Assembly: GCA_001600615.1 (NCBI GenBank)
Contig: BCKK01000008.1
Coordinates: 781,604 to 845,603 of the forward strand
Origin: Dioszegia crocea
Lineage: Eukaryota; Basidiomycota; Tremellomycetes; Tremellales; Bulleribasidiaceae
DNA: 64,000 bases
Direction of reading: 5' to 3'
The notes beneath the pieces were generated by a model. That model was not told the origin of the DNA and ran no database searches. It saw nothing but the letters and a program-made list of their open reading frames with translations. This document shows, in pieces, positions 28,170 to 51,381 of this stretch. Each line of letters starts with the position of its first letter. Position 1 is the first letter of the stretch. Both the position numbers and the translations under genes were made by a program.

Positions 28170-29530
28170 ATGGTCCATTTCCCCATCCCTTTCACCGCCC
28201 TCCTCCCATTCCTCTACTACGCCTCCCTCCTCGTCTTATCTTGGAGATTACTCCGATGTACTCCCGCGATTTATACCTATATCTCCACCAAAATTATACA
28301 CCTAACTCGCAAAGCAAAAAACTTCTTTTTGCGTCCGAGCGTTATCCCCTCTCCCCCGAATGCCTCACCATTACCTATCCTGAACGACGACATCCTACCT
28401 CTCATCTTCACCCATCTCCACCGACCGGATCTCTCTCTCATTGCTGCCGTGTCAGCCGGATCTTCCTCGAGCTTGCCGGGAAGGAATTATATGGGGATCG
28501 GAATGGCGTGCTGGTGGGCAAAGAAAGATACTACCACTGGGCGGGCACATCATCCGCAGCGAAAAGGCACGTCCTCGTCCCATCAGCCAAGAGATCACTC
28601 TTTGCTGGAGTACACCAACCGGGAGAGTATGATCTATACGACCTAGACGTCTGCTCTGAGATCAATGCGATCCGTCCACCGCCTTGGCCCTTCAGCTACT
28701 TCAGCTCTGCCACTCGCCGTCCCTTCGCACCATCCCCACTCAAGCTAAATCTCATGCGAAACATCACCCATCTGGTCTATGCCACTGATTCCTTACGAGG
28801 GTACGACGATATCGACTCCACGTCCCTCTTCCCTTCCCTCCAGACACTCACGATTCAACATGTCGAAAACGAGGCCCATTGGGATCGTCCTTTCCTCTCC
28901 AATCTCCGTCCCAAGCACATTCGGCTCATCCATAATACTGCCGTGCATGATATCGAGCCAAATCTCTGCATTATCGTCGCATCCCAGGCGGAAAAAATCA
29001 CTTACCATGTCTCCGAAGGAGACGAGTGGGACAAAGTCGAGATATGCCATTCTGAGCTGCCCCCACTGCTCAAACAGCTCGACATTGTCTTTATGGCACC
29101 AATAGTCGACAATCGATCTGGCGCCGAACGAGATGTACCCCTCCCATCTTACGCCGACGTTCGCCCTCCTCACTTCTCCCGTGCACAGCTGGACGGGATC
29201 GTGACATCGGTGGCGGGAATGATCGTTTCAGCTGCGATCTCATCGGAGCCCGAGGCGAAGGTGCGGATCATTGGACTGGGGAGGAACGCAGACAGTAAAG
29301 AGCGGTGGAGGATGGAAGCAGAGTTCACGGCCGTCGGCGGACTTAGGGCAAAGTTTCCCAATGCCTTGAAGCTCCAAGATCGGCTTTTCAATCTCCTCCT
29401 GAGGAAAGAGTATGCGGTCTTTTCTGGCCAGCTGGGTTTGGGGAAGGAGCAAGCGGCGCGTTCGTGGCGAGCTCTGGACTTTATCACGCTGGAGGAGTAC
29501 AGGGCTGAAGAGGACTATTTGCCGTTCTAG
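28170..29530 (+). CDS. F-box-like array member 1, frameshifted in a TC repeat
   Basis: The start at 28170 (MVHFPIPFTALLPFLYYASL) gives the hydrophobic N-terminus and an F-box beginning DDILPLIFTHLHRPDL. The frame then breaks at 28429-28441, where a (TC)5 run is two bases longer than the paralogues need. From 28442 another frame continues CCRVSRIFLELAGKELYGDR and runs without stops to EEYRAEEDYLPF. Everything after the break is well preserved (PSPLKLNLMRNITHLVYATD, HWDRPFLSNLRPKHIRLIH, LLKQLDIVFMAP). It may be a recent pseudogene, a sequence error or a slippage-controlled gene. A long ORF starting at 28094 in the second frame is an accident upstream of the break. Most like members 5 and 6. Confidence 0.7.
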
Positions 29531-29951
29531 TAGTACGTATTGTACGGCTGTATATAGAGTATGAATGAAACGCATGACGACTCTTCGCAAAGATCTCGGG
29601 TACGCCCCGTATGGGATGATTTGGAGCGCGGCGGAGCGTATGGACCGACCTGAGGCTTAGGCTGGAACGAAGTTACGTTCTCATCGACTCCAAACGCTGT
29701 GACTATCGTACGAAGCGGGTTTCTGGCCTTGAGAGGAGGCGGACTCAAGTGGATGATTCTGCCGAGATTCCACCGAGTGCGAGGGAAGTGACTTAACAAG
29801 CTTGAGCGCTTGAGCCTTCACTGCAGCTTGGACGTTGATTGATGTCTATGGTCTTTTGTTCATCATCCATCGCTATATCATATTGTGTGACCCCCGCTGA
29901 GCCAGGCGTCAGACAGACTGCCTGTGACCCGTCACTTTCGCTCCATATGCG
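29531..29951. other. Array spacer 1/2
   Basis: No gene seen. TGTATATAGAG lies at 29549-29559, just after the member 1 stop. The shared 16-bp motif is absent; only a partial TTACGTTCTC occurs near 29673. Confidence 0.4.
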
Positions 29952-31193
29952 ATGATATACGAAACCACAGCGATAATCTCCCCCATCACCATATCTCTCG
30001 TCAGCCTCTGCCTTCTCGCCATCTACCTGCTGTTCCAAAAACACAGTCACTCCTCCCTAACCCGCCCACGCCCATCCATCGCCATACCCGATATCCTCCT
30101 CCAGATCTTCCCTCTCCTCTCACGGGCAGACTTGGCCAGATGCTGCCTCGCGAATCGACTATTCTTCGATCTCGCCTGCAGGGAACTGTACGGTTCCCGC
30201 GATGGCGTCCTGGCCGGAGTAGAGCGCTTCTACGTATGGTCGGGCGACGTTGTATCACCTCCGAAATACGTTGTCATCTCCAAAAACAAACGCTCCCTTT
30301 TGGCCGGCCGTGACCGGCCAATCGAAACGGATACTACCAATCCCGAAATCATGGGTATCGTTTATCTACTCCACCTCGAGATCCCCCCTCACTATAATTT
30401 CCGCCCTTTCCACCCCTCACCTCTCAAACTGCACCTACTCCGTCGAGTCACTCACCTTGTCTATGTCACGGATAAGCGTAAAGAGTATGACACGCTTGAT
30501 TCTACGGGATGGTTTCCCGCTCTGGAGACCCTCACCATACAAGTGGTCCAGCCACAATATGCGAAGCCTAGCTGGTCCCAATCCTTCCTCGCGAATCTCC
30601 GTCCACGTCACATCCGTATCACTCAGCTATGTGCTCTTGACAAGCAATACGGCGCGACGCTTCCCTTCCTCCTCGACTCCACTCTGGGTTCGCGCGTCGA
30701 AAAGGTCACTATTCACTTTCTCGATTGCGATATGAACGAGGACGATCGGGCAACGGCTGTTAAAGTCGAATGGCCGGTTTCGCTGAAGCGTATTGACCTT
30801 GTCTTTCTCGCTCCCATCACCGATACCCGCACGCGTCCCATCGAGCGTGTCCCCCTTCTCGACTTCTCCCATACGCACCCACCCCCCATCATTCCCTCTA
30901 AACTCGACGAAGTTGCTCGGACAGTCGCCGCGCTCCTCATATCGGCGAAAGAGCTTAATCCAATCATTCGCATCGTTGGTATGAGCGCCATAGAGGCCGT
31001 TCACGTGGCGGCAGGGATGGCGCGGGAAGAGGATGAGGCCAAGACTTTCCCGAGGCGTTTGAAGTTATTCTACTGTCTTGGCTTGGAGCGCGGAGGGATG
31101 GTGAGAGGAGCGGCCGAGATCAGGGCGTTTGGTCTAGGATTCACGACAATGGAGGAGTACAAGCAGGAAAGGGATTATGCGCCATTTGCGTGA
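29952..31193 (+). CDS. F-box-like array member 2, 413 aa
   Basis: Intact intronless gene. A transmembrane segment at about residues 9-28 (IISPITISLVSLCLLAIYLL) is followed by a basic stretch. The F-box core is at 43-81 (IAIPDILLQIFPLLSRADLARCC), then GSRDGVLAGVERFYVWSG. The body has PIETDTTNPEIM, shared with members 3 and 4; LKLHLLRRVTHLVYVTDKRKEYD; SFLANLRPRHIRITQ; and TLGSRVEKVTIHFLDCD. The C-terminus is TMEEYKQERDYAPFA. F-box proteins normally bring substrates to SCF ubiquitin ligases through Skp1; the membrane segment suggests tethering to an endomembrane. Function is inferred from domain only, and Skp1 binding is untested. Confidence 0.85.
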   Translation: MIYETTAIISPITISLVSLCLLAIYLLFQKHSHSSLTRPRPSIAIPDILLQIFPLLSRADLARCCLANRLFFDLACRELYGSRDGVLAGVERFYVWSGDVVSPPKYVVISKNKRSLLAGRDRPIETDTTNPEIMGIVYLLHLEIPPHYNFRPFHPSPLKLHLLRRVTHLVYVTDKRKEYDTLDSTGWFPALETLTIQVVQPQYAKPSWSQSFLANLRPRHIRITQLCALDKQYGATLPFLLDSTLGSRVEKVTIHFLDCDMNEDDRATAVKVEWPVSLKRIDLVFLAPITDTRTRPIERVPLLDFSHTHPPPIIPSKLDEVARTVAALLISAKELNPIIRIVGMSAIEAVHVAAGMAREEDEAKTFPRRLKLFYCLGLERGGMVRGAAEIRAFGLGFTTMEEYKQERDYAPFA

Positions 31194-31525: not shown

Positions 31526-32857
31526 ATGGGCAAATTTAGAGAACTGGCTCGCCGCTCATTCTCCCAATTATGGGCCCCATCCGCCCTCCACATACTCTTG
31601 ATCCTCTGCCTTTCCGATGATTCAATTTGGTTGAACGGCCCCATCATCGCCCTCTTCCTTTTCCTCATCATCAGCGACGGTATCCAAACATGGTCTCTTT
31701 TACCTCCGACGAGACCTGCGCACCTCCCTCCTTATCTCCAAATCGCTATCCCCGATATTCTCATGCACATTATCCCCCTCCTTTCACGGCCCGAGCTCGT
31801 CCGTTGCTGTCGAGCAAATCGGCTCTTCTTCGAGTTCGCGTCCAAACCGCTCTACGCAGATCGGAATGGCGTGTTAGCTGGGAGAGAGCGCTATTATGCT
31901 TGGTCTCCGGGCTCCCCCGGAAAGCACTACATGATTGAAAAGAGCAAGCGTACACTCTTTGCGGGCTTTAACGAGCCCGCTGATTTCAACACCACAAATC
32001 CCGAGATCCTACAAATCTACCTTGACAATCCCCCTTACAAACCTCTTCCGCGGTTCCAGCCGTCTCCGCTCAAATTGAAACTCCTACGTCACGTCACCCA
32101 CATCATTTACGCTACCGATATGACGAAAGAGTACGACACGCTGGATGCGACGGGCTGGTTCCCTAACCTCCGTACCTTGACTATCCAAGTCATCGGACCC
32201 GTCTACGCTCAGCCCCTATGGGCACTCCCCTTCCTCTCCAGTCTTCGACCCAAACATGTCCGTATCACACACGTCCGCACTCTCGGCACCAAATACGGCT
32301 CTGTCCAACCCTACATACTCGACTCCCCTCTAGGCTCGCTCGTCGAGAAAGTCACCATCCACTTTGTCGATTGCAATGTCGAGAATCTCTTACTCGGCGC
32401 GATCGATGTCAAATGGCCAGGGTCGTTGAAGAGCATCGACCTAGTTTTTCTCGCTCCAAGCCTTGACACGCGCACGGGCACGGCTCGTAGTGTCCCTCTC
32501 CACGACTTCACCCAAACTCACCCTCCTCCCTTTCCTGATCACAAGCTCATTCACATTACACAGAGTATCGCGACACTGCTCGTTTCAGCTGCGAAGCTCA
32601 ACCCCAACATCCGGATAATTGGGATGGGTCCGAATGATGCAACGGTCAATATCCCGGCGCAGGTCTTGGTTGCGCGAAAGGAGGCATGGGGGACGGACGA
32701 GGCGTCAAGATTTGCGGCGGATCTGAGGTTTGCTTACGGGATTGAGCTGGGGATCGAAGAAATGGACGGGAAGCCGGCATCTAGTCGGATGGGGAAGCTG
32801 GAGTACACAGCGATGGAGGATTACAAGCAGGAGGAGGATTATGCGTCATTTGAGTGA
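31526..32857 (+). CDS. F-box-like array member 3, 443 aa
   Basis: The start is ATG at 31526 (MGKFRELARRSFSQLW); the frame is open from 31448 but only through GTG. Two hydrophobic stretches (residues about 18-30 and 36-50, GPIIALFLFLIIS) could form a hairpin anchor. F-box at 73-110 (IAIPDILMHIIPLLSRPELVRCCRANRLFFE), then ADRNGVLAGRERYYAW. The body has FNTTNPEILQI, PLKLKLLRHVTHIIYATDMTKEYD, LRPKHVRITHVRTLG, SPLGSLVEKVTIHFVDCN and KWPGSLKSIDLVFLAP. The C-terminus is AMEDYKQEEDYASFE. Closest relatives here are members 2 and 4; the 3' flank also resembles that of member 4 (GCATGGCGGC). Confidence 0.85.
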   Translation: MGKFRELARRSFSQLWAPSALHILLILCLSDDSIWLNGPIIALFLFLIISDGIQTWSLLPPTRPAHLPPYLQIAIPDILMHIIPLLSRPELVRCCRANRLFFEFASKPLYADRNGVLAGRERYYAWSPGSPGKHYMIEKSKRTLFAGFNEPADFNTTNPEILQIYLDNPPYKPLPRFQPSPLKLKLLRHVTHIIYATDMTKEYDTLDATGWFPNLRTLTIQVIGPVYAQPLWALPFLSSLRPKHVRITHVRTLGTKYGSVQPYILDSPLGSLVEKVTIHFVDCNVENLLLGAIDVKWPGSLKSIDLVFLAPSLDTRTGTARSVPLHDFTQTHPPPFPDHKLIHITQSIATLLVSAAKLNPNIRIIGMGPNDATVNIPAQVLVARKEAWGTDEASRFAADLRFAYGIELGIEEMDGKPASSRMGKLEYTAMEDYKQEEDYASFE

Positions 32858-33116: not shown

Positions 33117-33444
33117 GATCATCATTCATCCTTGGACGACCAGTCCATAGCAGGTGAGTCATCATTTCATATCCGCAGTGCTGCAATGCTGATAATGCTG
33201 ATAGATCTCGATACTAGCTTGGCGCTTCGAGACAATCTTGCGAGACTCAAATCCCCCTCGATCCCTTCCCAAACGCCACTCTGAACCTTTAGTCGTCTCT
33301 TATCATCATCCATTCCTTGGGCGACTAGCCCATAGCAGGTGAGTCATTACCCGACATCCGGATTGCGACAATGCTGATAAATCCCGATACTCGGCGCTAC
33401 GATGCAGTCTTGCGAGACCGAAATCTCCCTCCATCCCTTCCCGA
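33117..33444 (+). repeat. Imperfect tandem duplication of the member 4 leader
   Basis: Copy A (33117-33273) and copy B (33301-33444) share ATCATCAT..ATTC.TTGG.CGAC, CCATAGCAGGTGAGTCAT, AATGCTGATA, CTTGCGAGAC and ATCCCTTCCC in the same order. Copy B contains the ATG at 33402; the matching bases in copy A (CGAGACAATC) lack it. Each copy has a GTGAGT donor and a GCTGATA branch-like motif, so the duplicated unit probably includes a 5'-leader intron. If the CAG after ATG 33402 is used as acceptor, translation would start at 33453. Confidence 0.7.
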
Positions 33445-34739
33445 CCTGCACGATGATCTTCAAATTATCCCTTACGAAGATGTTCGGCGATCCCCTTTGC
33501 ATCCCCATATGCGTCGGCGCCTTCATCCTCCTCATGGCCACATACTTCCTCTTGGATCGTAAGCGAAAGTGCCTCGCTCGGTATCGGCTATACACCACCC
33601 CCGATATCCTCCTCCAAATCTTCCCCCTCCTCCCACGCGCCGATCTCGCAAATTGTTGCCTTGTAAATCGCCTATTCTTCGATCTGGGCTGTACAGAGTT
33701 GTACGGGTCTCGGGACGGCATTTTGGTAGGGATTCGCCGCTACTATGGGTGGGGCGGAGACCATCCATCCCACCACCTGATCACCAGCAGCAAGCGTACC
33801 CTCCTGGCGGGCGCCGATCGGCCGATTGAGACAGATACTACGAACCCTGAAATTATGGAGATCGTCCACGATCTTTACATATGCGCGATACCCCCTTATC
33901 GCCTCTTCCGCCGATTCAAACCCTCCCCCACAAAGCTGCGGCTATTGCGCCACGTCAGGCACATAATTTACGCCACGGATCGGAAGAGGGAGTATGACTC
34001 CCTTAATTCGACCGGCTGGTTTCCCATCCTCGAGACTCTCTCCATCCAGATCACTGGTCCAAGGTATGCCAAGCCTAATTGGTCTGACCCCTTCCTCTCC
34101 AATCTCAGGCCGCGACACGTCCGAATCACCCACATCTGCACTCTCTGCACCCTCGGCAGCCGATACGGGGGAACGTTTTCATTCTACCTCGACTCCCTTC
34201 TCGGCTCCCGCGTCAATAGAGTCACCATACACTTTATCGACTTTGCTATTCACCCGCAGGTGGATCCTACCAAGACGAAAGTCATCGACGTTAAATGGCC
34301 GCCGTCAGTGAAACACATTGACCTCGTCTTTCTCGCGCCTACTTCCGACTCACGCGACGGCGCCTTTTGGTCCGTTCCCCTTCACGACTTCACTCATACT
34401 TGCCCGCCCCTAATCCCAGCCGGAAAGTTTGACCAAGTCATCCGGACTATCGTTGCGCTCCTCACGTCTGTGAGCAAGCTTGAGGTCACCATACGGATCA
34501 TCGGGATGAGCGCGTATACTGCCGATATTGGCCATCCGTATCCTTGGTCTGTGGCAGGGACGGAGCAATGGGGTGAGGCTGAAGCGGAGAAATTCGAAAG
34601 GACTTTGACATCTGTCTACCTTACTGGATTGAAGAGGGGAGGAGTGGCGGAAGAGTTGGCAGGGGAGCGTGTGAGGGAGTTACGGTTCATGTCCATGGAG
34701 GATTATAAGCAAGAAGTGGCTTATGCGCCCTTCGCGTGA
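33402..34739 (+). CDS. F-box-like array member 4, 445 aa
   Basis: Intact frame. ATG 33402 (MQSCETEISLHPFP) is possible, but ATG 33453 or 33480 would also keep the transmembrane segment PLCIPICVGAFILLMATYFLL (residues 31-51). F-box at 65-101 (YTTPDILLQIFPLLPRADLANCCLVNRLFF), then GSRDGILVGIRRYYGW. The body has PIETDTTNPEIMEIV, TKLRLLRHVRHIIYATDRKREYD, NLRPRHVRITHICTL, LLGSRVNRVTIHFIDF and KWPPSVKHIDLVFLAP. The C-terminus is SMEDYKQEVAYAPFA. A TACGTAAC half-motif occurs at 33061-33068. Subfamily with members 2 and 3. Confidence 0.85.
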   Translation: MQSCETEISLHPFPTCTMIFKLSLTKMFGDPLCIPICVGAFILLMATYFLLDRKRKCLARYRLYTTPDILLQIFPLLPRADLANCCLVNRLFFDLGCTELYGSRDGILVGIRRYYGWGGDHPSHHLITSSKRTLLAGADRPIETDTTNPEIMEIVHDLYICAIPPYRLFRRFKPSPTKLRLLRHVRHIIYATDRKREYDSLNSTGWFPILETLSIQITGPRYAKPNWSDPFLSNLRPRHVRITHICTLCTLGSRYGGTFSFYLDSLLGSRVNRVTIHFIDFAIHPQVDPTKTKVIDVKWPPSVKHIDLVFLAPTSDSRDGAFWSVPLHDFTHTCPPLIPAGKFDQVIRTIVALLTSVSKLEVTIRIIGMSAYTADIGHPYPWSVAGTEQWGEAEAEKFERTLTSVYLTGLKRGGVAEELAGERVRELRFMSMEDYKQEVAYAPFA

Positions 34740-34938: not shown

Positions 34939-34954
34939 TACGTAACACGTTTCA
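34939..34954 (+). promoter_or_regulatory. Shared array motif TACGTAAC-AC-GTTTCA, copy 2
   Basis: Ends 83 bp before the ATG of member 5. Identical to copy 1 except for one base of the two-base spacer. Confidence 0.55.
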
Positions 34955-35037
34955 GAACCCAATTGTATCCCAATTTGCCCTTCGCCGTGTCAATCAACCA
35001 GACTGTACCTCTCTAATCGCTAAAGATTGGACACAAG

Positions 35038-36411
35038 ATGCTCACAGTCATGGTACTGCTCATTTGCACACTCAAAAGTGTCTTCTACCCCCTCCTCTCC
35101 TTTATTTCAATCATCCTCTACGGTCGAATACAAGACCGGATCGATGCCCGAATTGAGGCCTTCCTTTATCCCAAAATGCACCTCGCCTCCTTATGCATCC
35201 GGCTACATCTCATCCCCTTCTACCGCACTCATATACTCCGCCGTCCAACCCCACTCAGTATCGCCACTATCGACCTCTTACCCCATATCCTCTCCCAACT
35301 TACCCGCTCGGACCTCGTGCGATGCTGTCGCGTCAGCCACATCTTCTTCGAGCTGGCTGGCAAAGAGCTCTACGGCGATCGGAAGGGCGTGCTCGTTGGG
35401 AAAGAGCGATACTATCACTGGCTGGGTGGTGGCAATCCGGATACACCCAACATACACATTGTTATGCCCGTCATCAGACGGTCGCTCTTTGCTGGCATCA
35501 AACAGCCGGAAGAGTTTGACGTCAGCGATTTAACTCTCCGCGCAGATATCCAAGCCCTCCGTGCTCCCCCGTGGCCCTTTCACTATATCGACGCTATCCC
35601 CATCCGTCCCTTCACGCTTTCCAAAATGAAGATCGGATTGTTGCGGAATATTCGGCACCTGATATACACAACCGATCTCTGCCGAGAGCTCGACACTATT
35701 GATTCCATCTCCCTCTTCCCCCGCCTCGAAACTCTTACGGTCCAGTACATTGACTACTACGCTCAATGGGACCATCCCTTCCTCTCCAACCTCCGCCCGA
35801 AGCACCTCCGCCTCATTCATCTCCACATCTTCAGCCCGACCGGCCCGTACCCATGCCCCCTCACCTCCGCACTAGGGTCCAGGGCAGAGAAAGTGACTGT
35901 CCACTTTATGAGCTGCCATGGAATGAGCGGTGTCGGGACGTCACATATCAAATGGCCAGCGTCCCTCAGACAACTCGACGTCATCATTGCCGAACCCGCT
36001 CTTGATACCAGATCACACTCCCCCCGACACGTTCCTCTTCACTCCTTCACGACCGTACGAACTCCTCTCATCCCGCCAATTAGCTTCAACAGCATCGTGG
36101 GGTCCTTCCTCAATCTGATGCTGTGGGCTATGCCACCAGGAGAGGGCGTCTGTACGAAGGTGCGTCTCATCGTTGGGCGAGGGGATGGGGTGGCGTCTGG
36201 GCCAGGAGAGGAAGTTGAAGAGGCTGGGCGCCCGTCAGATCAGGGTGCTGCATTCTCAAAGGCAATGAAGGAGAGATATACCGGCGTGGTCGATGGCCTC
36301 ATGGCGGAGTTGGCGGAGTTGGCGGTGGAGTTGAGGGCGGAATACTTGGCAAAGATGGAGTTTGTCACCGTAGAGGAGTATATGAAAGAGAAGGATTGCT
36401 TGCCGCTCTGA
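35038..36411 (+). CDS. F-box-like array member 5, 457 aa
   Basis: Intact intronless gene. The protein starts directly with a hydrophobic helix (MLTVMVLLICTLKSVFYPLL, residues 2-28), a signal-anchor pattern. F-box at 76-112 (IATIDLLPHILSQLTRSDLVRCCRVSHIFFELA), then YGDRKGVLVGKERYYHWLGG. The body has RRSLFAGIKQPEEFD, LRAPPWPFHYI, SKMKIGLLRNIRHLIYTTDLCRELD, HPFLSNLRPKHLRLIHLHI, LGSRAEKVTVHFMSC and KWPASLRQLDVIIAEP. Before the C-terminus (TVEEYMKEKDCLPL) is a short in-frame repeat (AELAELAVEL, from GGCGGAGTT units near 36304). Closest to members 1 and 6. Confidence 0.87.
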   Translation: MLTVMVLLICTLKSVFYPLLSFISIILYGRIQDRIDARIEAFLYPKMHLASLCIRLHLIPFYRTHILRRPTPLSIATIDLLPHILSQLTRSDLVRCCRVSHIFFELAGKELYGDRKGVLVGKERYYHWLGGGNPDTPNIHIVMPVIRRSLFAGIKQPEEFDVSDLTLRADIQALRAPPWPFHYIDAIPIRPFTLSKMKIGLLRNIRHLIYTTDLCRELDTIDSISLFPRLETLTVQYIDYYAQWDHPFLSNLRPKHLRLIHLHIFSPTGPYPCPLTSALGSRAEKVTVHFMSCHGMSGVGTSHIKWPASLRQLDVIIAEPALDTRSHSPRHVPLHSFTTVRTPLIPPISFNSIVGSFLNLMLWAMPPGEGVCTKVRLIVGRGDGVASGPGEEVEEAGRPSDQGAAFSKAMKERYTGVVDGLMAELAELAVELRAEYLAKMEFVTVEEYMKEKDCLPL

Positions 36412-36807
36412 GTAGAGACTTGGGGATATGATGCATAGAATCAGGGTCGGCCTGGAGCACCCTCAGTCCAGACGATGAGGACAGGCTCGTTGGGAGTGGA
36501 CGGAGTAGAAGCAGCAAGTGGAATTTGCCGAATTTTACCCCAGCTCGATATACACGCTCCTGCAATGGGCTCTACTTGGCGCTATCGGTGTATTCATGCG
36601 GCATGTGGACTTCCTCAGCGTATGGCTTCCACAGGCTAAGCGAGGGTGCACCTGTATAAGGTCAACTTTGTCATGCTGCTTACTAGTGTACGTAACGCGT
36701 TTCAAGTTCTCGTGCCTCTCGCTGTGCCCCTTCACATCGCCAATCCGTCTCAACATCATCCTCAATAGTGGCCAGACACATCATAACTGTCGAGAACTGG
36801 GCACACG
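36412..36807. other. Array spacer 5/6
   Basis: No gene supported; the only feature is the shared motif at 36689-36704. Open frames here on both strands do not resemble the family. Confidence 0.4.
36689..36704 (+). promoter_or_regulatory. Shared array motif TACGTAAC-GC-GTTTCA, copy 3
   Basis: Identical to copy 1; it ends 103 bp before the ATG of member 6. Confidence 0.55.
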
Positions 36808-38126
36808 ATGTTCAATCCCATCAGGACCCTCACACGAATGGTCGTGTTCGTCATCGACGTCTTCCTCGATCTCATAACCGAACCCCTCCATGACTTCCTA
36901 CTATGGTTTAACGCCAAGCTCGATGCAATCAATCACCCCCGCCTCCACCTCATCCACCCCTTCTTCCGACCCTACCTCATCAAGGAGTATCGCGACTACC
37001 TCCTTCACCTCCGTCCTCCACCCGATATCGCCACAATCGACATACTCCCTCTGATCCTCTCTCAACTTCCCCGCTCGGACCTCGTACGGTGTTGTCGCGT
37101 CAGCCAACTCTTCCTCGGGCTCGCGGGGGAAGAACTGTATGGCGATCGAGAAGGCGTGCTAGTGGGAAGGCAGAGGTACCACCATTGGCTAGGTGATGCC
37201 CCTCCTCATTTGTCAGAAAGGCACGACATCAGACACAAGAGAAAGCGCACGCTTCTAGCTGGCTTTTCCCAGCCGGAAGACTTTGACGTGAACGACCCCG
37301 AAATCGTAGCATGGGTAGAGGAACAGCGCGCTCTGCCTTGGCCACTCAATTACATCTTCCACCCTCGAGTCCATCCCTTCCAACCTTCCAAGCTCAACTC
37401 GAGCTTCTCCACAATGTTCGCCACCTCATCCTCATCAGCGATCTACGTCGCGAATTCGACACCATAGACTCCACCTCCCTTTTCCCACATCTCCACACTC
37501 TCACGATCCAACTCATTGCGGATCTACCCCAATGGGACCAGCCTTTCCTATCCCACCTTGGTCCAACCCATATCCGGCTCACCCGCCTCTTCACTCCCGG
37601 CATAGAGTTTCCTCTCGATGGCGGTATAGGATCGGAGGTGAAGATGATCACACTGCATTTCACCGAGTGCAGCGAAGTGAGCGAACTTTCCGTCCAGAAG
37701 TTCAAGTGGCCACCGTTGCTCGAGCAACTCGACCTCGTCTTCGCGACATCCACTTCCAATCCCCCGTCATCCACATCACAGGACGTGCCCCTCCAGTCAT
37801 TCTCAACCGTCCGACCCCCTCATCTACATGGAGGAGAGCTGGACCTCAGGATTTTGGCTCTGGAAGTCATACTCATCATACTGTCGGCGTCGATGCGGAC
37901 GAGAGCCTTACGAGTGCGCTTCATCGGTCTGGCGGGAAAGGATGTGAATGAGGATAGGGAGGATGGGAATAACGAGACGATTATGGAGGGGCCAGAAGAG
38001 CAAGGGGCCGTCTTGATCAGGATGCTGAGGAAGTCTCACGCGAAATTGTGCTCTGAGGAGCTCCGGAAGGTGGATTTCGTGACATTCGAGGAGTATTGTA
38101 ATGAGAAGGATTATGTGCCGCTCTGA
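36808..38126 (+). pseudogene. F-box-like array member 6, broken by a 1-base deletion
   Basis: The first frame (36808-37467) encodes MFNPIRTLTRMVVFVIDVFL (hydrophobic start), an F-box at residues 74-111 (IATIDILPLILSQLPRSDLVRCCRVSQLF), YGDREGVLVGRQRYHHWLGD and RALPWPLNYI, as in member 5. At 37396-37398 one base is missing relative to paralogues (SKL-K/N-xELL). The family sequence continues in another frame (LELLHNVRHLILISDLRREFD, DQPFLSHLGPTHIRLTRL, KWPPLLEQLDLVFA) to FEEYCNEKDYVPL at 38126. No intron can explain it, since the sequence on both sides is conserved family sequence. A pseudogene or an assembly/sequencing error are the two readings. Confidence 0.75.
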
Positions 38127-38880: not shown

Positions 38881-39173
38881 TTCGAGGAGATCATACGTGG
38901 GGGTGGAGAAGGTTAGGGGGATGGAGGCTTGGAGGCAGTCTCGTTGGGGGGTCCGAGCACATGATGTCGGGGTATGAGGGCTAGACGGACAATTTAGAGC
39001 TTCATTCATCTGACTGGTTGTATCAGGCGTAGTCGCCGCCATATATAGTCCTCCGAACAACTAGTATATATATCTAGTCTCTGTGTGATCTGTCTGCTGT
39101 AGGGAGGGCTGGCTCCATCGAGTCTGGAAAAGCGTACGACCGTTGGACCAGCTTGCGCTGTGAATCATCTATC

Positions 39174-40925: not shown

Positions 40926-42338
40926 ATGCCACCCACCATCACTCGAAATGACTTCGATGTGCTGAACGTCTACACTTCCACCATGCAAGTCGACAACGCC
41001 ACAGCTCTCGACACCCCACGTCCCGAAATAACCATATTGGACATACTCTTGCTATCGTCACCAGTGCTCGCGCCGTTGATCCTTGTGATGATCGCGTTGC
41101 TTGTCATTGTCCTCTACAAAATACTCCTCGAGCTCATATTCGTTACCCCCCTATTGCTCAATCGGCTTCTCCTCCCAATTCACACTCGTCTCGTCCCGTC
41201 CGCCAAGAAGTACATCCTGCTTCGACCTACTCCCTCGGTCGACTTCGAGCTTATCCTCCCTCTCGTCATCCCTTATCTACCAAGGCGAGACCTCGTCAGG
41301 TGCTGTCGAGTCAACCTGGGATTTTTGGAAGTCTGTGGTAAGGCGCTATACGGCTCAAGCGGCGGCTTGGTTGCTGGAGAGGAGCAATACTATACCTGGC
41401 AAGGAGCTAGTAGTCCGATGGGAAGATATCTACCAAAATCGGTACGCTCCAAGCCGTCGTTATTCGCTAGCGTCGACCGGTCGAAGCGGTACGACACGTC
41501 CGAGCCGATCCTCCCACAATACTTTGATAGGCTACTTGAAGTCAAACATCCAGCACGCCCCTCACAACTAAAGCGCGAGCTTTTCGGCCACGTTCGACAC
41601 CTCACATTCGGTATCGACATCTGCCAGTACAGCGACCACGATCACCTCGATTCCCGCGACATGTTCCCCTCCCTGATCACCCTCACCCTCCCCTCCATCC
41701 ACATGTCCACATCTATCTGGGAGCTTCCCCTCCTCGCTAATCTCAGACCTCGACATATCCGTCTCACTCTCATACGGGCTCTCGGCATCAGCCTCAGCAG
41801 TCCTCGTTATTACCTCGGTTCCGGTCTCGGATTCAAGGCGAAGAAAGTGACGCTCCACTTTGTCGATTGCGAGTTGGCAAGACCTCCAACTACGCAAAGT
41901 CTCGTCGTCGGTTGGCCAAAAGCTATGAACCAGCTCGACCTGGTCTTTATGACTCCTACCCCAAGTACGACATTACCCTATCACTCTTTCGTCCGCCCCC
42001 AAACACTCACTATCCCCGAATCGGACCTGCGCCTCGTCGCTATTACCATTTCCACCATCATTGCGTCGGCATCGGCGATGACCAGTGGCGGGAAAATTCG
42101 CATTGTTGGCTTGACGGAGACGCCAGGTTACACTCTGGATGACGATGAATTGTACGGGGATGATTTAGTGGAAGATGAGCTGCAGACCACGAGGTTCTCG
42201 GAGATCTTGAAGGAGGAGTATACGACTTTGCTCAAGGGTAAGGGGGTGAAGCAAGAGAGGGCGGAGATGCGGGCTGGGAGCTTGGAGTTTGTGAGATTGA
42301 AGGAATACATGAGAGAAGGGGGTATGCCTCCGTTCTGA
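40926..42338 (+). CDS. F-box-like array member 9, 470 aa
   Basis: Intact intronless gene. About 35 N-terminal residues precede a very long hydrophobic region (41-78: SSPVLAPLILVMIALLVIVL continuing), enough for one or two membrane passes. F-box at 106-142 (FELILPLVIPYLPRRDLVRCCRVNLGFLEV), then GSSGGLVAGEEQYYTWQG, where the usual RxGVL is GGL. The body has LKRELFGHVRHLTFGIDI, NLRPRHIRLTLIRALG, YYLGSGLGFKAKKVTLHFVDCE and GWPKAMNQLDLVFMTPTPS. The C-terminus is RLKEYMREGGMPPF. It pairs with member 10 on many shared residues (LIRALG, YYLGS, MTPTPS/MVPTPS, the MPPF/VPPF end). Confidence 0.87.
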   Translation: MPPTITRNDFDVLNVYTSTMQVDNATALDTPRPEITILDILLLSSPVLAPLILVMIALLVIVLYKILLELIFVTPLLLNRLLLPIHTRLVPSAKKYILLRPTPSVDFELILPLVIPYLPRRDLVRCCRVNLGFLEVCGKALYGSSGGLVAGEEQYYTWQGASSPMGRYLPKSVRSKPSLFASVDRSKRYDTSEPILPQYFDRLLEVKHPARPSQLKRELFGHVRHLTFGIDICQYSDHDHLDSRDMFPSLITLTLPSIHMSTSIWELPLLANLRPRHIRLTLIRALGISLSSPRYYLGSGLGFKAKKVTLHFVDCELARPPTTQSLVVGWPKAMNQLDLVFMTPTPSTTLPYHSFVRPQTLTIPESDLRLVAITISTIIASASAMTSGGKIRIVGLTETPGYTLDDDELYGDDLVEDELQTTRFSEILKEEYTTLLKGKGVKQERAEMRAGSLEFVRLKEYMREGGMPPF

Positions 42339-42820: not shown

Positions 42821-44299
42821 ATGCACGAAATCGCCGTAACTCCCTCGGTGCCAACGCCAACGATACTGATGGGGGATTTCACCTCCATCGTCACTATCTT
42901 AGCCACCATCACGGTCGCCTCTGTCGAACCGAAGGCTGCTACCCAGGATGAGGAGGTACCAGCTCCAACAATAATCCTCTGGTTTATAGCGGTACCAACG
43001 GTTATCGCGACAATCGTCACGATGATCGTTTACTTTAGCAGTATCCTTCGGACGGCTTCCGAGCTCATTTCCATCTCTATCCTAATCCTCAACCACCTCC
43101 GTCGGCAACTTCGCACCCACATCTCTCCCTTCATCCTCTACAGTGTGCTTCGCCTAACTCCTCCTCACAATCTTGCCACGTCCGAGACACTCGTCACCCT
43201 CATGGTCGGGCACCTTTCGCGGCATGACCTCGTCCTCTGCTGTCGCGTCAGCAGGCTCTTCTTCGAGGTGGCGGGTAGGGAGCTTTACGGATCAAGCACG
43301 GGCTTGATTGGTGGGAAGGAAAACTTCTACTCCTGGCTAGGAGGAGATTACCCGCTGGAGTGGTATCTTCCACTATCGGTACGCACAAGGCCGGCGCTGT
43401 TTGCTGGAATCGCCAGAGCCGAGGCGTACGATGTTTCTGGACCGATCGTTCCACAGTTGGGCTCAAAGCTCTGGAACGCTTGGGCGGGATATACTCCTCA
43501 ACCTCCTCAGCCATCCAAGCTCAAGCGTGCCCTCCTTCGTCATGTCCTACACCTGACCTATGGTCTGGATATTCTACAAAACCCAGACTATGACCATATC
43601 CCTTCGCGCGATTTATTCCCATCTTTGGTCACTCTGACCCTCCCATACATCCGCATGTATAAGGTCTACTGGGAGCTCCCCCTCCTCGTCAATCTTCGGC
43701 CCCGTCACATCCGGCTCACCCTCATCCGGGCTCTTGGGACTGAGTTGGGCCACCACCCATACTACCTAGGCTCGGACCTCGGTTCGAGAGTAGAAAAGGT
43801 CACACTACATTTTGTCGATTGTCGAGTGCCGGTTCCTTTCACTCTGCGCACTCTTACAATCGGTTGGCCGAGGTCGATGAGTCAAATCGACCTTGTCTTC
43901 ATGGTTCCCACCCCCAGTTCCGCACTCGGATACCACTCTTTTGCCCATCCCTTACCAGTATTGCTCCCGTTTATGGGTACTGAGATTCGTCTCGTCGCCC
44001 TCACGGTTTCTTACATCCTGCCATCGGCGTTCGCAGTAATGTCTGCCGGCGGATGTATCCGGATAATCGGCCTGGGCGAGAGGTCTCTCGTGGATGTAAC
44101 GTCGGCGGAGAGTACGGGGTCAGTCCAGGCAAAAGGAGAAAATCTGGACATCAGATTTGCAGCAATGCTAGAGGAGGAGTATGCGAAACGGCTGACTACG
44201 AAGGGGGTCGCTGTGGGCGAGGCGGGGTTGCTAGCGGGAAGGCTAGAGTTTCTGGGATTGAAGGATTACATGAAGGAGAAGGCTGTGCCTCCGTTCTAA
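42821..44299 (+). CDS. F-box-like array member 10, 492 aa
   Basis: Intact intronless gene. Two hydrophobic stretches precede the domain: residues about 20-34 (FTSIVTILATITVAS) and 50-73 (TIILWFIAVPTVIATIVTMI). F-box at 120-157 (TSETLVTLMVGHLSRHDLVLCCRVSRLFFEVAG), then GSSTGLIGGKENFYSWLGG. The body has LKRALLRHVLHLTYGLDI, NLRPRHIRLTLIRALG, YYLGSDLGSRVEKVTLHFVDCR and GWPRSMSQIDLVFMVPTPS. The C-terminus is GLKDYMKEKAVPPF. Sister of member 9. The F-box carries QWV-like substitutions (LVTLMVGHL) and may bind Skp1 less canonically; this is inference. Confidence 0.86.
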   Translation: MHEIAVTPSVPTPTILMGDFTSIVTILATITVASVEPKAATQDEEVPAPTIILWFIAVPTVIATIVTMIVYFSSILRTASELISISILILNHLRRQLRTHISPFILYSVLRLTPPHNLATSETLVTLMVGHLSRHDLVLCCRVSRLFFEVAGRELYGSSTGLIGGKENFYSWLGGDYPLEWYLPLSVRTRPALFAGIARAEAYDVSGPIVPQLGSKLWNAWAGYTPQPPQPSKLKRALLRHVLHLTYGLDILQNPDYDHIPSRDLFPSLVTLTLPYIRMYKVYWELPLLVNLRPRHIRLTLIRALGTELGHHPYYLGSDLGSRVEKVTLHFVDCRVPVPFTLRTLTIGWPRSMSQIDLVFMVPTPSSALGYHSFAHPLPVLLPFMGTEIRLVALTVSYILPSAFAVMSAGGCIRIIGLGERSLVDVTSAESTGSVQAKGENLDIRFAAMLEEEYAKRLTTKGVAVGEAGLLAGRLEFLGLKDYMKEKAVPPF

Positions 44300-44878: not shown

Positions 44879-46171
44879 ATGGCGCAATTCAACAAGCGCC
44901 TCATCCGGCGCAACGTGGGCTTCATCATCATCATCATGTTGATTATACCCCTCGCCTTCCTGTTCTTCGTCCTGTTTCTCGGCGTTGCAACCTACGAAAT
45001 TATCATCAATGTAACCCACCGCTTCCTTCGCTACTACCGTAGTGCCACCCGACCCTGGCTAGACTCCCATATCCTGCGAACAGACCCACGTCGCACTATT
45101 TTCACCGATGATTTGGTCCCCCTCATCTTCACCCATTTAGAAGAGAGGGATCTTGTCCGTTGTTGTCGGGTCAGCCGACTTTGCTTCGACGTTGCTGGGA
45201 AGGCGGTATACAGCTCGAAGCGGGGAGTGGCTGTAGGAGCGGAGAAGTGCTACCGCTGGGCAGAATGCTCTTGCGGAGAGGAAAGATGCCGGAGGGACGG
45301 GCATAAGGGAAACAAAACGGAGCAGGAACGGACGAGCTTATTCAATGAGCAGACATTGTGGTCACGGTTCAGACACACCTTCGAAGTCCAATGGCCTTAC
45401 CTCTCACCAAACCTTCTTACGACTCCCCTCCTTTCTCAACGCAAATTGGCTTTGCTACAACGGACACGCCATCTAGTCTATACGGCTGATCGCTCTACCC
45501 GCGAATATGACAACTTCGATTCGTCAATGCTATTCCCACGCCTCGATACCCTGACCATTCAACATTCCCAACGCACAGTCCAGTGGAGTAGTCCATTCTT
45601 GGCCAATCTCCAGCCCAAACATATCCGACTCGTCCACATCCCCTCCATCGCTCGCCCCTCTCACATCAGCTTCATCCTTCCAGAACCAAAGCTCGGAAGG
45701 AGGACGGAAAAAATTACCGTGCACTTCTCTTGTCAAAAGCTGGGGGGGTACGATGATCTCCCAATCCAAATCAAATGGCCCCCACTGGTCAAATTCATCG
45801 ATTTCGTCTTCCTTCCCCCTCTCGTCGGGGTACCAACGCCTAGAAACCGCCTGACTCCCATCCTCGATTTCACTCATCTCCAGTCCCCCTTCATTCACAG
45901 CCCAGAAGTCCCAAGCGTAGCCGCAGACGTCGGGCGGCTTCTATCCTCAGCAGCAAAGACTGGGGCGACCGTGCGAGTCGTCGGCTTGCACGAGGGGATG
46001 CGTGACTCCGGCATCGAAGCGGAGTTTAGAAGCATACTGGGCATAGAGTACGCCTTCCAGTTGCGGTCCGTCCAGGGGCTGAGTACGGATGAGGCAACGG
46101 AACGGGCGGGGCAGCTGGTGTATGTTGCGTTGGAGGACTATAGGGAGGAGAAGGATTTCCTGCCATTCTAG
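44879..46171 (+). CDS. F-box-like array member 11, 430 aa, with Cys/His insert
   Basis: Starts at ATG 44879 (MAQFNKRLIRRNVGFIIIIM); six more in-frame codons upstream begin with TTG. A strong transmembrane helix at residues 13-36 is preceded by basic residues, which favours a cytosolic N-terminus. F-box at 75-111 (FTDDLVPLIFTHLEERDLVRCCRVSRLCFDVAG). After GVAVGAEKCYRW comes a compact Cys/His cluster (C130, C132, C137, H142), shared in reduced form only with member 12. The body has RKLALLQRTRHLVYTADRSTREYD, SPFLANLQPKHIRLVHIPS, GRRTEKITVHFSCQ and KWPPLVKFIDFVFLPP. The C-terminus is ALEDYREEKDFLPF. Confidence 0.87.
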   Translation: MAQFNKRLIRRNVGFIIIIMLIIPLAFLFFVLFLGVATYEIIINVTHRFLRYYRSATRPWLDSHILRTDPRRTIFTDDLVPLIFTHLEERDLVRCCRVSRLCFDVAGKAVYSSKRGVAVGAEKCYRWAECSCGEERCRRDGHKGNKTEQERTSLFNEQTLWSRFRHTFEVQWPYLSPNLLTTPLLSQRKLALLQRTRHLVYTADRSTREYDNFDSSMLFPRLDTLTIQHSQRTVQWSSPFLANLQPKHIRLVHIPSIARPSHISFILPEPKLGRRTEKITVHFSCQKLGGYDDLPIQIKWPPLVKFIDFVFLPPLVGVPTPRNRLTPILDFTHLQSPFIHSPEVPSVAADVGRLLSSAAKTGATVRVVGLHEGMRDSGIEAEFRSILGIEYAFQLRSVQGLSTDEATERAGQLVYVALEDYREEKDFLPF

Positions 46172-46559: not shown

Positions 46560-47909
46560 ATGAGTGTTTTATTTCTAACTCCTCCAACTATCCGTCCGTC
46601 CACTACTCCGATCGCCATGAGCCAGCCCCAGAAGAAAGGATCCTTGAAGGTTACTGCCATTATACTCGCCTGCCTTTTGATATTCATTCCCTGCGCCATA
46701 TTTCGGCTGGCCACTGTCATCTTGGGCAGCCTGTATGGCAGGCTAAACCTCCTCCGTCGCTATTTCCGCCTCTCCATCGCCCCCTGGGTCCGCACTAGCG
46801 TTCTTCGACAACCTCTACCTACCTCAGCCGCGATTGCTGACATCCTACCCCTCATTTTCGCGCATTTGGACGACCCGGATCTCGCCCGATGCTGCCGCGT
46901 CAACCGACTTTGCTTCGAGGTGGCTGGAAGAGCTCTGTACAGCTCAGCCAAAGGCGTACCTATAAGCGGCGAGAAGTACTATCGGTGGCAGAAATGTACT
47001 TGCGAGGAGGCGTGCGAACATGCAGGCGTACTCGTAGCGCAGAGGAGGCGACGGCTGCTGGCTGAGTGCGAGAGATACGACTCGGATAAGCAGGATTTAA
47101 AATCCTTCGTCAAGGCGGAGTTCGCTCTCACGCTGGGAGCCTTCGCCAATCGCCCTCCCTACCCCATCTCTAAACCCAAACTATCCTTACTTGAACACAT
47201 CCGTCATCTGCGATATACGGCCGAACAGATCAAACGTCACCACAACACGGTCGATACGACCCACATGTTCCCGCACCTACACACCCTTACCATGCAACTT
47301 GCGGAGCCCTCTGTCAATTGGGACGACCCATTCTTGTCCAACCTCCGTCCCTCCCACATTAGGCTCGTCCACCTCCCCTCCCTCCAAATCCCTACCCCCG
47401 AAATACCTCTTCTATGCAACTCGGCGCTCGGCCAGCGAGCGGAAAAGATCACAATCCACATCATGTGTGGTGAGTTAAGATCGGTCTACAAGGACTTTTT
47501 CAAGGTCAACTGGCCATCCTCGACACGCCAAATCGATATTGTCTTTATGGCTCCGAATCCCGCTGTCGGTTCAGCCTCACCGGACGAGCGGATCAGCCCT
47601 TACTACAACTTTACCCCTGCTCAACCACCCAACATGCGTATGCAGAACATGACGGATGTTTCGCTAGAGATTGCGCAGCTGCTAGGCTCTGCATCGATGA
47701 CCCAGGCGACAGTGCGGGTCGTCGGGCTGCACGAGAGTCTGCCGAGCGCGGCTGAGGATGAAATGTTTAGGGAGTTGTTGAAGGAGGATCTCGTTGCTGA
47801 AATGGAGGATGGTCAGGTGGAAAGGCAGAGAGCAGAACAGCGGGCTGAGGAGCTGGTGTATGTTTCGCTGGGCGACTATGTTCAGGAGGAGGGCTTCTTG
47901 TCGTTCTGA
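46560..47909 (+). CDS. F-box-like array member 12, 449 aa, with Cys/His insert
   Basis: ATG 46560 (MSVLFLTPPTIRPSTTPIAM); ATG 46617 (MSQPQKKGSLK) is an equally good start just before the transmembrane helix (residues 31-55, VTAIILACLLIFIPCAIFRL). F-box at 90-127 (AAIADILPLIFAHLDDPDLARCCRVNRLCFEVAG). The insert after KYYRW has C146, C148, C152 and H154 followed by a basic run (AQRRRRLL). The body has SKPKLSLLEHIRHLRYTAEQ, DPFLSNLRPSHIRLVHLPS, GQRAEKITIHIMCG and NWPSSTRQIDIVFMAP. The C-terminus is SLGDYVQEEGFLSF. Sister of member 11. Confidence 0.87.
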   Translation: MSVLFLTPPTIRPSTTPIAMSQPQKKGSLKVTAIILACLLIFIPCAIFRLATVILGSLYGRLNLLRRYFRLSIAPWVRTSVLRQPLPTSAAIADILPLIFAHLDDPDLARCCRVNRLCFEVAGRALYSSAKGVPISGEKYYRWQKCTCEEACEHAGVLVAQRRRRLLAECERYDSDKQDLKSFVKAEFALTLGAFANRPPYPISKPKLSLLEHIRHLRYTAEQIKRHHNTVDTTHMFPHLHTLTMQLAEPSVNWDDPFLSNLRPSHIRLVHLPSLQIPTPEIPLLCNSALGQRAEKITIHIMCGELRSVYKDFFKVNWPSSTRQIDIVFMAPNPAVGSASPDERISPYYNFTPAQPPNMRMQNMTDVSLEIAQLLGSASMTQATVRVVGLHESLPSAAEDEMFRELLKEDLVAEMEDGQVERQRAEQRAEELVYVSLGDYVQEEGFLSF

Positions 47910-48564: not shown

Positions 48565-49683
48565 ATGGGCCGAAACATCAAGGGCTTGTTGAGCCTGAAA
48601 GTCGGACGCTTCTTCGCTCGTCGCCCCCGAGGCAAACCTGCCCCAATCCTCATTCCCGATGTCCTCATCCTCATCTTTGCCCATCTCAGCCGATCCGACC
48701 TCGCACGCTGTATAGCTGTCAATCATCTCTTTGCCGATATCGCCAGCGAGGCACTCTACTCTTCCCCTACCGCAGTGGAATTTGGCCGAGAATGGCGGTA
48801 CCCGACCGGAAAGAACCACGAAATCATCCCTCGAAACATCTTTTCAGGAATTGATAAACCTCTATCGATAGCCAATGGCTCTCCTCTACCTCCCACGAAA
48901 AGAAGACCGAAATACACGGCGTTTTACCCCTCCGCCCTAAAGTTCAAATGGCTAGAACATGTCCGACACCTGGCGTATCACAGTCATCCATTCGAGGAAT
49001 GCGATGAACTCGCCGCACCTACCCCTTTCCCTTCCCTTGAGACTCTCACCGTCTATCCCCTCTCCATACATAAGATCCTCTGGCGATCATCCCTCCTCGC
49101 GAACCTTCGGCCTACACATATCAGACTCGCCCAGATTCCCAATATCGGTCAATCACCGTCATCATTCGCGCTGGACAAGGAGATCGGAACGAAAGCAACG
49201 AAAGTCACCGTCCACTTCTTACAGTGCCTCCCTCCTAAATCCTCTAAGGCAGGCGACGAGCCTATCTTAACTGTCAAATGGCCACCGAAGATCAGACAGC
49301 TGGATTTGGTCTTCATGGTGCCGACATCGTCATCGAGCGGGGTAGTGGGACAAGGCGGAACTGTGTCGGTGCCACTGTGGGACAATGAGATCGAGGAGAA
49401 CGCGAAGGCGGTAGCAAGATTTATGGCAACGGCAGGGATGAGATGTGGTTGTCGGGTGATTGGGTTGGGCAAGAGCTTTAAGGTGGCGGCAAATCACGAG
49501 TTGTTTTCCGAGGCGAGTCAGGCGGAATGGGAGACGACCTTTTCTGAATCGTTACTTTCCGAGTATCGGGATGCGCTGGTGCGGATGAAGATGGAGGTTA
49601 CAAAGGCGGCTAAGATGGCTGAAGAGGTGGAAATGTTGACGTTGGAGCAGTATTGGCAGGAGAAGGGCACTATACCGTTGTAG
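48565..49683 (+). CDS. F-box-like array member 13, 372 aa, no membrane anchor
   Basis: Starts at ATG 48565 (MGRNIKGLLSLKVGRFFARR); the frame opens at 48544 with GTG. It has a basic N-terminus without a hydrophobic helix, so it would be soluble unless an upstream exon is missed. F-box at 28-66 (ILIPDVLILIFAHLSRSDLARCIAVNHLFADIA), then SSPTAVEFGREWRYP instead of the GVLxGxExYY segment. The body has SALKFKWLEHVRHLAYHSH, SSLLANLRPTHIRLAQIPN, EIGTKATKVTVHFLQC and KWPPKIRQLDLVFMVP. The C-terminus is TLEQYWQEKGTIPL. It pairs with member 14 (NLFxGxxKP region, missing anchor). Confidence 0.84.
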   Translation: MGRNIKGLLSLKVGRFFARRPRGKPAPILIPDVLILIFAHLSRSDLARCIAVNHLFADIASEALYSSPTAVEFGREWRYPTGKNHEIIPRNIFSGIDKPLSIANGSPLPPTKRRPKYTAFYPSALKFKWLEHVRHLAYHSHPFEECDELAAPTPFPSLETLTVYPLSIHKILWRSSLLANLRPTHIRLAQIPNIGQSPSSFALDKEIGTKATKVTVHFLQCLPPKSSKAGDEPILTVKWPPKIRQLDLVFMVPTSSSSGVVGQGGTVSVPLWDNEIEENAKAVARFMATAGMRCGCRVIGLGKSFKVAANHELFSEASQAEWETTFSESLLSEYRDALVRMKMEVTKAAKMAEEVEMLTLEQYWQEKGTIPL

Positions 49684-50085
49684 TTCTGGCTTGTTGTTCT
49701 CAATCTGTTGTATTATGCTCGTTGTGCGAATACGTAGCTCGGGCACTCGGATATGAGTCAGGCGTTCATCGTGCAGCCTGCAGACGTGAGCCAGCTTGCC
49801 AAGTGACTATAGGATGCAGAGGCGCAAGGGTGAATCCTCCGAGAATCCGCCGTTGTGTCTCGCCATGTAAGCAGCATCTCCTCCATCACAATCTCTAGCT
49901 CATTTAGCGCTGGGGCTTCTCATATCGTGCTTGTCAGAGTGTAGTGAGTGTTCTGTAACTGGTGAATTACCCGTCGCTGACCCGGATCCAGGGCTGGCAC
50001 GACGGCGACGTCAATGACCTAGTCATCAATCCAACGACCAGGGGCTTCCACTTGGGCTTCCACCACACCAACGACCAGCAGCCCA
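49684..50085. other. Array spacer 13/14
   Basis: No gene, motif or repeat recognised. Confidence 0.4.
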
Positions 50086-51381
50086 ATGGGCAACCAAGTC
50101 CGAATCAAGCGCGCCTCGCGTCCACATTCCCTGCCTCCACCTCCATCACCTCCAAGCCCCGGCTCCTTCGTCCTAATCGATGACATCCTTCCTTTAGTTC
50201 TCGTCCATCTCTCCACTCCCGACGTCCTCAATTGCCTATACGCCTCTCGGCTCTTCTTCGACTCCGCCACACGGATCCTATACTCCACAGTGGTATATGG
50301 GCGAGAGTGGGAGAAGATCCAGAATGGTCGATCCGGAAAGCCCATCTCTATCCCTCGGAACCTATTCCAAGGGGTGGAGAAACCCCCACTTCCTAAACCT
50401 GTACCTCCCAGATCACTCGTTCGCCGAATTCTACATTTCTCCCCAACCCGCATACTGCAGGAGTCAACGGGCGGTCCACGTCGACTTGTCCTCTCCTCTA
50501 TGAAGATCCAGGCCCTCAGCCATATTCGAGATTTAACATACTACGGTCATCCCTCCACACAGAGCGACTTCATCCCCCTTCCCAACCTCCTTCCCTCCCT
50601 TGACACTCTCACCATCATATCCCACCGGCTACCCTCTCGGCGCCCACATTATACAGAGGTCAAATGGGGCTTAGCCGACCCCGAGCCCCACTTCATCGAC
50701 TGGACTTCTCCACTCTTGCGTAGCCTCCGACCAAAGCATCTCCGACTTTTACATATACCCGCCGTTTACAATCCGGAGTATAACCATTATCCCCTCCAAG
50801 AGACATTCGGATCGTCGGTCGAAAGGCTTACTATCCACTTCATGACTTGCGTTACGGACCGGTATGGTCGCCCTCCATTGTGTTATCATCGTGGGTATCC
50901 CGTTACCTTCACATGGCCCATCCCCTCCTGCATCGACACAGGATGGGCCTCAACCGCCGGTCTGAAAAGATTCGATCTGGTATTCATTTTGGAGGATGAA
51001 CCTAGTCTTACGGAAATCGGGGCAAGTCGGCCAGTGTTTCACAGTATGACTCCTCCGTCAATACGAGAAGAGTATATCGGAGACACGACAGCTGCAGTGG
51101 CGGAAATACTGGTGTCGGCTGTAGGGAAGGGAGATCGGGCATTGGAGATAAGGCTCGTAGGTCTAGGAGCGGAGTTTTTCGGGTGTAGGACGGACGGCAT
51201 GTTCATGAGGCCGAAGCAATATCAGCTTGAAGAGATGTTTGATGCCCAACTAAGGGCGAAGTACATCGATGGGCTGGTGAAGACTGGGATGGCGGAGACG
51301 GAGGCAGCGAACTGGGCAGATGAGCTGGAAGACGTCTCGCTTTGGCGTTATCGGGCGGAGGAGGGTTGCCTGTCATTCTAG
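50086..51381 (+). CDS. F-box-like array member 14, 431 aa, no membrane anchor
   Basis: Intact intronless gene closing the + array. A basic, Pro-rich leader (MGNQVRIKRASRPHSLPPPP) replaces the hydrophobic helix. F-box at 29-66 (VLIDDILPLVLVHLSTPDVLNCLYASRLFFDSA), then STVVYGREWEKI and IPRNLFQGVEKPP, as in member 13 (IPRNIFSGIDKP). The body has SSMKIQALSHIRDLTYYGH, an insertion around SHRLPSRRPHYTEVKWGLAD, SPLLRSLRPKHLRLLHIPA, TFGSSVERLTIHFMTC and GLKRFDLVFILE. The C-terminus is SLWRYRAEEGCLSF. It is one of the most diverged + members. Confidence 0.86.
   Translation: MGNQVRIKRASRPHSLPPPPSPPSPGSFVLIDDILPLVLVHLSTPDVLNCLYASRLFFDSATRILYSTVVYGREWEKIQNGRSGKPISIPRNLFQGVEKPPLPKPVPPRSLVRRILHFSPTRILQESTGGPRRLVLSSMKIQALSHIRDLTYYGHPSTQSDFIPLPNLLPSLDTLTIISHRLPSRRPHYTEVKWGLADPEPHFIDWTSPLLRSLRPKHLRLLHIPAVYNPEYNHYPLQETFGSSVERLTIHFMTCVTDRYGRPPLCYHRGYPVTFTWPIPSCIDTGWASTAGLKRFDLVFILEDEPSLTEIGASRPVFHSMTPPSIREEYIGDTTAAVAEILVSAVGKGDRALEIRLVGLGAEFFGCRTDGMFMRPKQYQLEEMFDAQLRAKYIDGLVKTGMAETEAANWADELEDVSLWRYRAEEGCLSF

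Follow-up and report, generated by a model that had tools for sequence, protein, structure and literature searches.

The 64,000-nucleotide stretch of Dioszegia crocea DNA analysed here (the window; contig BCKK01000008.1, positions 781,604 to 845,603) holds a tandem array of F-box genes, most of whose products are predicted to be anchored in a membrane. The explanation that we favor, with a probability of about 0.55, is that the array encodes membrane-tethered substrate receptors of Skp1-Cul1-F-box (SCF) ligases with a divergent leucine-rich repeat (LRR)-like body, that it arose by old tandem duplication and subsequent decay, and that a subset of its genes is co-induced through a common promoter element. 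Lineage-specific F-box expansion is already known; what is new is the putatively anchored branch and its common element. A literature search, judged mostly from listings, turned up no account that we recognized of such a fungal F-box array.

Family loci were located from open reading frames (ORFs) and by searching the genome (20.57 Mb in 17 contigs) in six frames with the array gene M7 as the query. Window genes are numbered M1–M15, and other genomic members M16–M19. The genome search yielded 23 matched stretches, which were grouped into 19 genes, 18 of them on contig C8 and one (M19) on C7. An earlier reading of the same DNA, here called the original prediction, had described thirteen paralogues and a remnant lying head to tail between 28170 and 51381, and ORFs and genome search agreed on this arrangement (M1–M13, plus strand). 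The three further family loci that it placed on the other strand are M14, M15 and the C-terminal tail of M16 (Table 1); M17, M18 and most of M16 lie beyond the window on C8. Of the 15 window genes, 13 run as a single intact ORF from the F-box to the C-terminus, but M1 and M6 have frame breaks (within the F-box and in mid-body, respectively), with too little space for an intron at either. The remnant (≈38.6–38.9 kb) retains the N-terminal part of the gene, as read directly from the sequence. A masked stretch of ≈4.5 kb (≈84–4630 of the neighbouring locus L009, adjoining window positions 63759–63881) interrupts M16. The letters bordering this stretch look repeated on both sides and resemble the ends of a mobile element. 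The first alignment has 19 rows besides M7, and their identity to M7 was 26–43%. In a second alignment of 16 rows (A2), made without M1, M6 and M16, one tyrosine and one glutamate of the C-terminal signature were invariant; the EYxxExDFLPF motif said to be shared by all members is thus common in form, but its letters vary.

The F-box of these proteins, as originally proposed, is supported both by sequence and by structure prediction. A Pfam F-box-like match was found in 14 of the 16 members at E ≤ 1 (best 8.7e-06), and the predicted model of M7 (predicted template modelling score, pTM, 0.72; mean predicted local distance difference test score, pLDDT, 71.2) contains three F-box helices. In a smaller Pfam scan, three of ten members scored above the curated cut-off and two had no match. 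A profile search of the PDB gave five matches, four of them to F-box proteins, which were weak (best E 0.034) and covered the F-box region only. When M7 alone was compared with the PDB, the single match, a gibberellin receptor at E 0.75, was put down to chance. A Skp1 match is present in the genome.

The original prediction recognized no named domain beyond the F-box. By sequence this stands: in the 16 members at E ≤ 1, the body had no Pfam match that was credible, and LRR families were absent from the matches. The predicted structure, however, places the body nearest to F-box/LRR (FBXL) receptors. The first five strands of the body in the M7 model are spaced 24–30 residues apart, and a comparison with known structures returned F-box/LRR receptors in seven of the top eight rows, with middling scores. 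We take these seven to be D3; a plant LRR-F-box ligase; the KDM2B chain of PRC1.1; KDM2A; Skp2 (twice); and FBXL5. Most of the 50 rows were LRR proteins, by title or from general knowledge of the protein. A divergent LRR-like fold of the body is thus moderately supported by the model, and the best reading is that the array proteins would work like FBXL receptors, although we do not claim FBXL membership because no LRR was found at the sequence level. No homologues of this branch were found in the protein collection at E ≤ 0.01, whether the query was the 16-row alignment (8000 candidates scored) or M5 alone (7052).

A hydrophobic segment, defined as a 19-residue Kyte–Doolittle mean of at least 1.6 ahead of the F-box, is present in 10 of the 15 window genes (M1–M6 and M8–M11) and in 12 of 19 family-wide, with the addition of M16 and M19. 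Values for M6 (1.67) and M19 (1.61) are borderline, while those for M8–M11 range from 2.48 to 3.34. The frame of M7 is open upstream to 39103 and encodes a hydrophobic segment there, but contains no ATG in that part, so that M7 would have the segment only if its start precedes the first ATG. By hydropathy, M12–M15, M17 and M18 have no hydrophobic segment apart from the F-box helices; M17 and M18 reach 1.6 over the F-box only and were not scored as anchored. Thus, the proposed N-terminal hydrophobic helix is a property of most members, but not of all, and most of the family proteins are predicted from hydropathy to be membrane-anchored.

In the family tree, M1 and M6 are represented by their downstream parts and M16 by its N-terminal part; five of eight ORFs from a second array on contig C6 (described below) serve as the outgroup. 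Neighbouring genes group together with strong support (M2/M3/M4, M8/M9 and M10/M11), while M1, M5, M6 and M14 form one group with the C7 copy, M19. All 12 anchored members fall within a group of 14; M12, M13, M15, M17 and M18 lie outside it, at a weakly supported fork (80/55). M14 is within the 14-member group, yet has no hydrophobic segment.

The family does not stand alone but forms a branch of an F-box expansion that spans the genome. Searched in six frames with the Pfam F-box-like profile, the genome gave at least 148 matches at E ≤ 0.1 and at least 107 above the cut-off, three of the latter counted together with their neighbours in frame. These are lower bounds, as scoring covered 150 of 172 candidates and the count lacks some of the window members. 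In the same search, 2 of 14 control genomes gave weak matches at E ≤ 0.1 and none of the 14 gave any above the cut-off, so 107 is the safer number. When the 148 matches were clustered with gaps of up to 15 kb, 87 of them fell into 14 clusters of three or more, 10 of which are wholly on one strand. Fungal F-box protein counts range from 11 to 95 in Table 1 of PMC7991009, where Cryptococcus neoformans has 19 and Laccaria bicolor 95, by a method that differs from our six-frame count. F-box genes are also listed among the orthogroups specific to complex multicellular fungi in the accessible text of PMC8893723.

The one-strand array at C6:1505307–1562945, with 22 F-box-like matches, is bigger than that in the window. 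The eight C6 ORFs examined are single-ORF F-box genes (one of them cut by the end of the locus), and the C6 and window family profiles aligned in hhalign with a probability of 98.3% and an E-value of 2.4e-14 over 324 columns, from the F-box to the C-terminus. Unlike the window array, none of the eight has, by eye, a hydrophobic segment outside the F-box (windows reaching 1.97 sit over it), and none is preceded by the promoter element. A member of the C6 array matched two entries in the protein collection, with 74% identity over 99% of the query and 55% over 74%; each has a longest contig of 3,707 bases, which may be one and the same. Pieces of clusters on C10, C3 and C9 contained other kinds of F-box-like or related ORFs. 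Taken together, the window array is old, decaying and diversifying inside a genome-wide expansion.

The motif TTACGTAA, given as the YRE-A site of AP-1/Yap factors in the accessible text of PMC3111461, occurs four times in the window against 0.22 expected. All four sites are in intergenic regions of the array, ahead of M1, M3, M5 and the remnant, and the motif is also present upstream of M16; the promoters of most other family members do not have it. A longer pattern, TACGTAACNNGTTTCA, has eight exact sites in the genome, five of which precede M1, M5, M6, the remnant and M16. (The other three lie on C1, ≈0.5 kb upstream of the first P450 ORF piece; on C7, beside a Mak10-like gene; and at another place on C7 that has no assigned neighbour.) Allowing one mismatch raises the number to 25 sites, versus 5 for the reversed pattern. 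The 16-base core is 92% identical across the five sites in the array, while the flanks are 25% and 28% identical and have no 10-mers in common. A weaker element, matching at 11 of 14 positions (a level reached by 3% of shuffles), is found upstream of M2; the exact element is missing from 15 of 20 family upstream regions and from all eight C6 regions. These patterns suggest that a subset of the array is probably switched on together via a composite element holding an AP-1/Yap-type basic leucine zipper (bZIP) site or a near copy of one.

ORFs near the element sites outside the array were identified by Pfam scans for ten (three without a match) and by eye for the remainder. One-mismatch sites, for which there is no random-site control, have among their neighbouring genes another P450; an aldo-keto reductase, accompanied by an F-box gene; a zinc alcohol dehydrogenase; and a short-chain dehydrogenase. 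Two adjacent P450 genes (C1:1606203–1611759) both have the element upstream, exact in one and with one mismatch in the other. PF08601, for a Pap1/Yap1-type factor, had no match in the genome or in any control genome. The motif TGAGTCA was at chance level (15 sites versus 11.0 expected; 15 of 100 shuffles reach 15). We also considered whether the TGAAAC half of the element could mark a pheromone response, and dropped this reading, as no element site was near a match to STE3 or STE12. STE3 and two STE12-like places lie within ≈13 kb at C2:1182302–1195543, a region that resembles a Tremellales mating-type locus; a second STE3-like match is on C11.

Table 1. Family genes and promoter elements in the window.
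Feature	Positions	Strand	Description
M1	28170..29530	+	N-terminal hydrophobic segment; frame break inside F-box
M2	29952..31193	+	Intact; N-terminal hydrophobic segment; F-box above Pfam cut-off
M3	31526..32857	+	Intact; N-terminal hydrophobic segment
M4	33402..34739	+	Intact; N-terminal hydrophobic segment; F-box above Pfam cut-off
M5	35038..36411	+	Intact; N-terminal hydrophobic segment
M6	36808..38126	+	Borderline N-terminal hydrophobic segment; frame break mid-body
Remnant	38592..38900	+	Decayed family gene, N-terminal part kept
M7	39415..40671	+	Intact from first ATG; hydrophobic segment in the open frame upstream (to 39103), which has no ATG
M8	40926..42338	+	Intact; N-terminal hydrophobic segment
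M9	42821..44299	+	Intact; N-terminal hydrophobic segment
M10	44879..46171	+	Intact; N-terminal hydrophobic segment, strongest in family (3.34)
M11	46560..47909	+	Intact; N-terminal hydrophobic segment
M12	48565..49683	+	Intact; no separate hydrophobic segment; F-box above Pfam cut-off
M13	50086..51381	+	Intact; no separate hydrophobic segment
M14	60046..61161	-	Intact; no separate hydrophobic segment
M15	61408..62733	-	Intact; no separate hydrophobic segment
M16 C-terminal tail	63759..63881	-	Remainder outside window, past ≈4.5 kb masked stretch
Element TACGTAACGCGTTTCA	27971..27986	+	199 bases upstream of M1
Element TACGTAACACGTTTCA	34939..34954	+	99 bases upstream of M5
Element TACGTAACGCGTTTCA	36689..36704	+	119 bases upstream of M6; preceding G makes TTACGTAA incomplete
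Element TACGTAACTTGTTTCA	38273..38288	+	≈320 bases upstream of remnant

Other features were seen in and around the array. A 67-base direct repeat (81% alike) lies ahead of M4 at 33129–33380, with TGAGTCAT in each copy, and the region upstream of M17 (ORF L009 6234–7697, minus strand) contains a tandemly duplicated stretch. The neighbours are of housekeeping type: SART-1 (23773–25311), DUF382/PSP, resembling an SF3b subunit (52679–53908), Josephin (6702–7223) and Peptidase M48 (17190–17645). Rfam at gathering thresholds had no matches in the window. The sole 5.8S rRNA match in the assembly (L039 1501–1626) looks degraded by eye, and rDNA may be missing from the assembly.

In the mechanism that we propose, the F-box would recruit Skp1-Cul1, while the N-terminal hydrophobic segments would tether most members to a membrane with the F-box and the LRR-like body facing the cytosol. 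The body would select membrane or near-membrane proteins, which the ligase would then mark for degradation. The array would represent a membrane-anchored branch of the genome-wide expansion, formed as genes were duplicated in tandem long ago and some copies decayed, in which the element-bearing subset may be induced jointly.

Several observations fit genomic drift, in which birth-and-death duplication in a runaway F-box superfamily leaves the array behind as a by-product, with little or no selected function for most of its copies. Two of the 15 window genes are frame-broken, a further copy survives as a remnant and the masked stretch divides M16. The damage falls heavily on the element-bearing copies, three of which are broken (M1, M6 and the remnant), with M16 split; because M5 alone among the five is intact, the functional reading of the element is weakened. 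Expansion by tandem duplication is also reported in Caenorhabditis in the accessible text of PMC8665587. However, the frame is complete in 13 of the 15 window genes despite the low identity to M7, which we take to need long selection on the frame, and the 16-base element has been retained amid promoters that cannot otherwise be aligned. We regard drift as an unlikely explanation.

Some F-box families of plants and nematodes have been proposed to act in self/non-self recognition, and the variable bodies of the array proteins might likewise recognize foreign or rival proteins, or parasites, at membranes. The array layout, the long branches of the tree, the decay and the masked stretch inside one copy would all fit; none of the 25 element sites, however, is near an STE3 or STE12 match, and we consider such a role very doubtful. 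Of the original interpretation, which is supported in part, the suggestion of ER/Golgi quality control is likewise speculative. It is also decidedly unlikely that the N-terminal segments, instead of being stable anchors, serve to target the proteins to mitochondria or elsewhere, so that they act like FBXL4 at mitochondria. Net positive charge behind several of the segments (M1, M2, M4 and M11) is consistent with targeting, but high hydrophobicity marks a membrane helix rather than an amphipathic presequence, and the M8–M11 segments are closer to the former.

Among known systems, the FBXL receptors (Skp2, FBXL5, KDM2B and D3/MAX2) are the nearest in design, having an N-terminal F-box followed by a body, and the predicted fold of the array proteins matches theirs best. 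The array proteins differ from them in the missing LRR match in Pfam, the hydrophobic segment in 12 of 19 members and the middling structural scores. FBXL4, an SCF receptor of the mitochondrial outer membrane that needs its N-terminal targeting part according to the accessible text of PMC10308361, resembles the predicted array proteins in that it acts at a membrane; no sequence relation to it was found here, and the array proteins are many. The lineage-specific F-box expansions of plants (from literature listings) and Caenorhabditis (accessible text of PMC8665587) share tandem duplication, decay and strong divergence with the array, which sits in a 20.6-Mb fungal genome with at least 107 six-frame matches above the cut-off.

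Conceivably, though we would not bet on it, a fungal lineage has built up diversified membrane-tethered SCF receptors and deploys some of them alongside detoxifying enzymes via the composite 16-base element, forming a stress-inducible, membrane-bound disposal repertoire. Plants and nematodes supply most of the known large F-box expansions, and a compact fungal genome with more than 100 F-box-like loci would be a small system in which to study their role. A membrane-fixed branch would narrow the search for substrates, and the common promoter element would offer a direct route to the condition that induces the element-bearing copies.
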